From contig CALUWL010000016.1 of the NCBI GenBank assembly GCA_944324445.1, positions 1-32,327 of the forward strand: a stretch of DNA of 32,327 nucleotides, read 5' to 3'. Made by a program: the position numbers and the translations under genes. This DNA comes from Candidatus Gastranaerophilales bacterium. Lineage in GTDB: Bacteria; Cyanobacteriota; Vampirovibrionia; Gastranaerophilales; Gastranaerophilaceae. This document shows, one piece after another, positions 31,482 to 32,327 of the stretch. How positions within the stretch are numbered: position 1 is the first letter of the stretch; each line of letters opens with the position of its first letter. A model generated the notes under the pieces. It saw only the letters and a program-made list of their open reading frames with translations, ran no database searches and was not told the DNA's origin.

Positions 31482-31558
<77 letters not shown>

Positions 31559-31603: not shown

Positions 31604-31633
31604 AGTAAATGTAATTTAACGACCGGTTTTATT

Positions 31634-31856
31634 TGTACGGATACTTTGATTATTTTGGCTTAGTCTGCTCCGTAAGGGCGTTTTCAGGTCGGAAAATTAA
31701 GTTTACCCAAAAAATCAAACTGCCGAACTGGACTTTTTTCGGACTGTACGGATAGATTGAGTTTTTCTTAATATAGCTGAGTTACGCACCGATTTTGAAG
31801 TGTGCGGATAAAATGATTATTTTGGTATAGTCCAGTTGTGCAAAAAGCGTAAGCCG
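31634..31856. repeat. Degenerate ~56-nt repeats headed by TGTRCGGATA
   Basis: Units begin at 31634, about 31687 (degenerate, GGTCGGAAAATTAAG), 31745 and 31801, spaced 53-58 nt. The first and last match at 26 of the first 32 positions, sharing TGATTATTTTGG and TAGTC. The stretch encodes no plausible protein. Confidence 0.5.
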
Positions 31857-32327
31857 TGTGTGAAAATAAAGACAAGCGATGAGCTTGGCTTTATTGAAAC
31901 CAATCGATGGCGACGTTTCAAATTCTTGCCGAAGGCGAATTTGACAGGAGCAAAAAGCGTAAGCCAGAATGAAGACCAAAATGATGAGTTTTGGTCGTAA
32001 CTGTCGATAGCCGCTGCCCAAAATCCCTTAGCGAACTTGTGAGCTTAGGGATTGGAAATACCCTTGGGGTGCGTAGGATAATTGAGCAAACGAACGACAG
32101 CGAAAGCGATAGTGAGTTTTGCGAAATACCCACAGGCGGAATTTTTGAATAGAATTTTAATCTTCCAATTCGGAAAAATTAACACAAGGTTTTGGAAATT
32201 TTAATGATACGAAAACGACATACACTCATTCTTAGCGAGCACAAGCGAGCTTTAGAATGATGGATGCAAAACTCTAACATACAAGCAATTTTAATTGCGT
32301 AAGTATGTTAAGAGTTGTTGCCAAAGC
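31840..32327. other. Hairpin-rich intergenic array, possibly structured RNA or palindromic repeats (runs off window)
   Basis: No gene is seen from 31604 to the window end, and GC rises to about 40-48% against about 30% around it. Hairpins are: 31865-31895 (12 bp, one mismatch, loop GATGA), 31919-31943 (CAAATTC/GAATTTG), 31974-31996 (GACCAAAA/TTTTGGTC, loop GATGA), 32022-32053 (AATCCCT...AGGGATT, one T-T mismatch), 32227-32259 (CATTCT/AGAATG) and 32270-32316 (about 19 bp including GCAATT-TT-AATTGC). Direct repeats are GCAAAAAGCGTAAGCC at 31840 and 31950, and GAAATACCC at 32055 and 32123. Short frames here read through hairpins in both directions and look spurious. The strand is unknown. Confidence 0.6.

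Follow-up and report, generated by a model that had tools for sequence, protein, structure and literature searches.

The gene-free stretch at positions 31610–32327 of the window (the whole of contig C16 of a 1.8-Mb genome, 32,327 nucleotides ending in an assembly break at 32327) is very probably the left end of a transposable element whose preferred insertion site is just 3′ of tRNA genes, together with a transposase leader, with hairpin repeats lodged between the two. Searches against its own genome and 39 relatives resolve the stretch into a composite of three parts with different histories, A, M and B (Table 1). It is a combination of two known kinds of sequence, a transposon end and dispersed palindromic repeats, and the family behind it is what raises its significance. 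Throughout, G-numbers denote the genomes of relatives, C-numbers contigs and L-numbers extracted loci.

Table 1 Features of the tRNA-Met gene and the stretch behind it, in window coordinates
Feature	Position	Strand	Basis or remark
tRNA-Met (CAT)	31482..31558	+	ARAGORN and Rfam; insertion-site landmark, left intact
Part A, element left end, TGT terminus toward tRNA	31610..31843	+	85–93% identical copies behind tRNA/tmRNA genes in relatives
Transposase-site-like repeat 1	31634..31658	+	repeat of TGTACGGATAnnTTGATTATTTTGG type
Transposase-site-like repeat 2	31745..31769	+	6 mismatches to consensus
Transposase-site-like repeat 3	31801..31825	+	repeat of TGTACGGATAnnTTGATTATTTTGG type
Part M, chained hairpin units	31844..32168	+	lacking where A meets B in G007:C1 and G018:C46
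Hairpin unit U1, starts GCGTAAGCC	31842..31916	+	copies in own/related genomes
Hairpin unit U2, starts GCGACGTTT	31905..31965	+	copies in own/related genomes
Hairpin unit U3, starts GCGTAAGCC	31953..32013	+	copies in own/related genomes
Hairpin unit U4, GCGATGCAC in most copies	32008..32074	+	copies in own/related genomes
Hairpin unit U5, starts GCGTAGGAT	32072..32141	+	6 places in own genome
Part B, leader of TnsB-like transposase gene, ends at contig end	32169..32327	+	match to leaders in relatives
Leader hairpin 1	32227..32259	+	folding; conserved in relatives
Leader hairpin 2	32270..32316	+	folding; conserved in relatives

A sequence-only reading had described more than 700 bp of hairpin-packed, gene-free DNA of raised GC content downstream of a tRNA-fMet gene. 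Much of this description stands. The GC content is about 40% as against 30.4% for the window, the ORF listing contains no frame of at least 80 aa downstream of 31410, and direct repeats are present: a 22-mer recurs at 31634, 31745 and 31801, and GCAAAAAGCGTAAGCC occurs twice in identical form. The tRNA itself is called as tRNA-Met (CAT), and an Rfam scan of the window at the gathering score returns two tRNAs and no other structured RNA. On either strand the full stretch folds more stably than every one of 20 shuffles (z −4.4 and −3.8), but the structure is not uniform. The signal is confined to 31846–32166 (z −4.1) and 32167–32327 (z −4.4), while 31610–31845, and with it part A, folds at the chance level set by shuffles (z −0.8).

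The TGT terminus of part A lies 51 bp behind tRNA-Met. Copies that are ~85–93% identical occur in other species, one of them of another family (G029), mostly directly 3′ of a tRNA or tmRNA gene; these start with TGTAATTTAACGACC and hold TGTACGGATAnnTTGATTATTTTGG repeats, which are putative transposase sites. Several transposase sites per end are the usual design of DDE-transposon ends, as in Tn7 and Mu. At the right end, like sites are inverted and the terminus is sharp, at AATCAAACCATGTG-n-TACA. A pattern search locates 25 such termini, spread over 15 of the 28 genus genomes, and no instance of a control pattern. Most genus genomes (Candidatus Gastranaerophilales) carry related ends, and element ends in relatives take the form TGT...ACA, each with several transposase-site-like repeats. 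Two elements are delimited by matching 5-bp flanks: a 53.1-kb element (G034, 721110–774219) with the target duplication TTGAG and both transposase modules, and a 4.2-kb element (G007) with the target duplication ATAAA and one type IIG-like restriction-modification gene. The flanks of the further left/right end pairs tried do not match.

Another part A copy, for which no right end was located, is flanked by a BsuBI/PstI-type restriction pair on one side and a tmRNA gene on the other. Directly inside left ends of the family, G029:C5 (L053 5203–7199) carries a BsuBI/PstI-type endonuclease and a C5 methylase, and G007:C7 (L050 7577–11263) a 1228-aa methylase-specificity fusion. On the latter contig, the 4.2-kb element holds a tRNA-like T-arm and acceptor 3′ part (GGGTTCGGATCCCACCCTTCCCG; L050 11479–11503) immediately within its right end, a place where ARAGORN calls no tRNA. 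A ~1-kb element behind tRNA-Asn (G007:C1, L061 6740–7860) has both of its ends, a single short gene and a transposase-leader remnant.

The orientation of these elements is fixed, with the left end toward the tRNA. Among the 62 transposase loci with at least 1.2 kb of upstream sequence, 38 have a same-strand tRNA or tmRNA gene within 1.2 kb upstream and none has one on the opposite strand, a bias at odds with the weak target preference of Mu-like phages; the other 24 have no tRNA within that distance. Similarly, a same-strand tRNA lies within 400 bp of 19 of the 26 left ends, in 13 of these cases at 39–78 bp. For seven left ends this distance contains no same-strand tRNA, one left end has a tRNA on the opposite strand in that range, and some of those without a nearby tRNA are stacked or have cargo in between. 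Several loci are stacked at one tRNA, either as tandem left termini or with a right terminus abutting a truncated left end. Because many isotypes as well as tmRNA are used as targets, what is recognised is likely a feature common to tRNA and tmRNA genes, such as the T-arm.

Part B is 97–98% identical to the transposase leader of G007:C1 and G018:C46, in both of which the leader adjoins part A almost directly. This near-identity places the part B hairpins in the 5′ leader of a transposase gene, where a regulatory role for them is plausible. The sequence-only reading had the structure continue past the window end; in relatives the structured part extends for some tens of bases, up to the transposase start. 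The gene beside A and B in the relatives (transposase 1, outside the window) encodes a protein of the Mu/TnsB group (phrog_310, E 1e-87). Intact relatives of this protein measure ~665 aa, with Mu-transpos_C and rve domains and TnsB as best solved relative (E 1e-4). The adjoining gene encodes a TniB-like ATPase (PF05621 TniB, E 8.6e-10; AAA_22, E 3e-19) and the next protein X (225 aa). In many loci these are followed by transposase 2, whose best solved relative is MuA, and then by MuB, GemA and Mor. Phage structural genes were checked on one contig (G042), where terminase, tail sheath, head maturation protease, tape measure, baseplate and tail fibre genes lie downstream. MuA, MuB, GemA, Mor and virion genes are features of the relatives, and none is present in the window. 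The related transposase loci come mostly from Candidatus Gastranaerophilales or Melainabacteria.

TnsA endonuclease is present in many, not all, Tn7-like transposons. None is among the ten element proteins looked at, and the genes scanned, which cover part of the element, include no Cas effector genes. A 912-aa ORF in G007 was dropped as a candidate TnsAB fusion, only about residues 31–537 matching the transposase family, as was the 712-aa AAA ORF that follows it as a candidate TnsC, its matches being to other AAA families. In G007:C1 (L049 4339–7077), the transposase frame runs into ~370 residues with DANHNGIPDFLE repeats that are foreign to the transposase family, which suggests a fusion by rearrangement. 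Locus L198 holds two transposase 1/TniB modules back to back on opposite strands.

Protein X, encoded directly behind TniB, is by this position the likely target selector. A review describes TniQ as near-universal in Tn7-like elements, TnsE being the sole other known selector family (PMC11406308). None of the 28 genus genomes and none of the six element-bearing ones matches the TniQ profile PF06527; among 117 genomes drawn from the phylum, which served as positive control, 18 do. The predicted structure of protein X (pLDDT 90.5) contains a winged helix at residues 1–63. Compared with Pfam, a small TniQ profile and PDB folds, protein X matches as a winged helix only, with no TniQ chain among the matches listed, and the protein X and TniQ profiles do not match each other. 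For the C-terminal part of protein X, Foldseek yields nothing below E 1; integrase-like matches at E >1 are not evidence. The element acts like a Tn7-like homing transposon but, since no TniQ was found, we do not class it as one.

Protein X, alone or with the ATPase, may recognise a feature common to tRNA and tmRNA genes, for which the T-arm is a candidate. Such recognition would direct the module of transposase 1 (module 1) to insert ~40–75 bp downstream, so that the tRNA stays intact. The Mu-type set would carry out replicative transposition during lytic growth. Small elements that share these ends but have a restriction-modification gene as their sole cargo may be satellites mobilised in trans. 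We put forward, as a tentative model that falls somewhat short of probable, one transposable-phage lineage with two complete systems of transposition, in which TnsB/TniB and a TniQ-unrelated selector X place the prophage behind tRNA or tmRNA genes, the Mu set serves replication, and restriction-modification satellites share the ends. Rather unlikely, in our judgement, is that the 53-kb elements are two nested ones, a Tn7-like transposon (module 1) carrying a Mu-like prophage (module 2) with its own ends. Each module is a complete set, and at several loci the available sequence contains module 1 but no module 2. Against nesting, one order and spacing recurs in many loci across families, with transposase 2 starting ~3.7–4 kb after the start of transposase 1, and no Mu-end-like repeat pair is seen between the modules in three loci.

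The window copy is best read as one end, now decayed, of a Mu-like prophage or satellite that homes to tRNA genes. The window itself has one end only and no transposase, and the contig stops before any second flank. Elsewhere in the same genome, a transposase 1 fragment (residues 54–260), followed by unrelated sequence, lies at the end of contig C3; going by gene order, this contig is probably the neighbour of C16 across a short gap. C37 carries a further partial left end and C39 a right end, and a search of this genome for transposase 2 gave no match. With its TnsB-like gene reduced to a disrupted fragment and a second transposase not detectable in the genome, the copy is probably a decayed, dead element.

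Part M consists of five units of 60–75 nt each that split the A–B junction, and is, by alignment, a later insertion between left end and leader. The sequence-only reading had taken recurring GCGTAAG strings as marks of related units; the strings prove to be unit starts, and copies of the units occur, reordered, at other loci of this and related genomes. Two of its options divide the stretch between them: the edge of an inserted element accounts for the flanks, A as left end and B as transposase leader, and a palindromic repeat family for the middle 325 bp. In C30 of this genome (L013 2039–2345), a ~130-bp unit bearing U5 stands in tandem between two ribosomal protein genes, which we take, by reading, to be rplF and rplR. 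In C11 (L010 2515–2840) and C14 (L012 2380–2615), U4–U5 lies between a partial tRNA 5′ copy (upstream) and a complete tRNA gene, as if an insertion had struck the D-arm and a ~30–40-nt duplication had restored the tRNA. The contig ends of C66 (L015 1–640) and C18 (L014 1–320) are rich in the hairpin units and in a repeat around TTCACTTTTTCTTTTTG, and the two kinds of repeat seem to limit the assembly of this genome.

Units also lie between A and B in the element copies of G001, G007:C2 and G016, as would be expected if they were intrinsic to the element, an RNA or a site that it uses, and not independent repeats. We consider this improbable, as several elements lack units and units occur far from any element end, as between the ribosomal protein genes. 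A slightly weaker case can be made for REP-type repeats moved by a Y1 (RAYT) transposase. The units are short, palindromic and intergenic, and U5 contains a GTAG string, but Y1_Tnp is found in 1 of 27 genus genomes and the Y1 (TnpA-REP) profile PF01797 has no match in the genome of the window, the five control genomes being matched, which makes this origin very unlikely. In a covariation check on eleven versions of U5, 7 of the 17 predicted pairs have both partners changed, and the covariation energy term is near zero; the paired changes support hairpins and are not strong evidence of one fixed structure. The remaining option, one large structured non-coding RNA spanning the whole 720 bp, was dropped as scarcely credible, despite the folding of the full stretch beyond shuffles and the paired changes in U5, since Rfam gives no match, part A folds at chance level, relatives join A and B without M, and the hairpin units are found apart and reordered elsewhere.

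If the model is true, tRNA/tmRNA homing without a detectable TniQ would offer a new target selector, and one system for settling alongside one for replicating would show how Mu-type phages can gain site specificity. Within this order of gut bacteria, the element family accounts for stretches downstream of tRNA genes that lack genes, and probably for many contig breaks.

Mu-like transposable phages integrate with little target preference. Like Mu, the relatives of the element have MuA, MuB, GemA and Mor in order, with contractile-tail and packaging genes on one contig; they differ from it in a second transposase/ATPase pair adjoining the left end, in an insertion that is site-directed, behind tRNA genes, and in the structural genes examined, which lie partly on the opposite strand. 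A literature search of open-licence papers found no description of a phage with two different transposition machines. Units U1–U5 resemble REP elements and other small dispersed palindromic repeats (PMC3116915, PMC3733652) in being short, intergenic, hairpin-forming and multi-copy, but belong to several types, joined at GCG junctions in an order that varies, have long flanking duplications, and occur in a genome with no detected RAYT gene. The element shares with tRNA-homing Tn7-like transposons (CAST I-B2, I-D and V-K; CyCAST, PMC10293859; reviewed in PMC11406308) a TnsB-like transposase with a TniB/TnsC-like ATPase, TGT...ACA ends with several transposase-site-like repeats, a 5-bp duplication, a fixed orientation at a short distance behind diverse tRNA genes, and defence cargo. 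In contrast to these, protein X takes the place of TniQ, which was not found in the element family, the insertion lies mostly 39–78 bp behind the tRNA as compared with 30–33 nt for CyCAST, and at many loci the element is joined by a Mu-type set of phage transposition genes.
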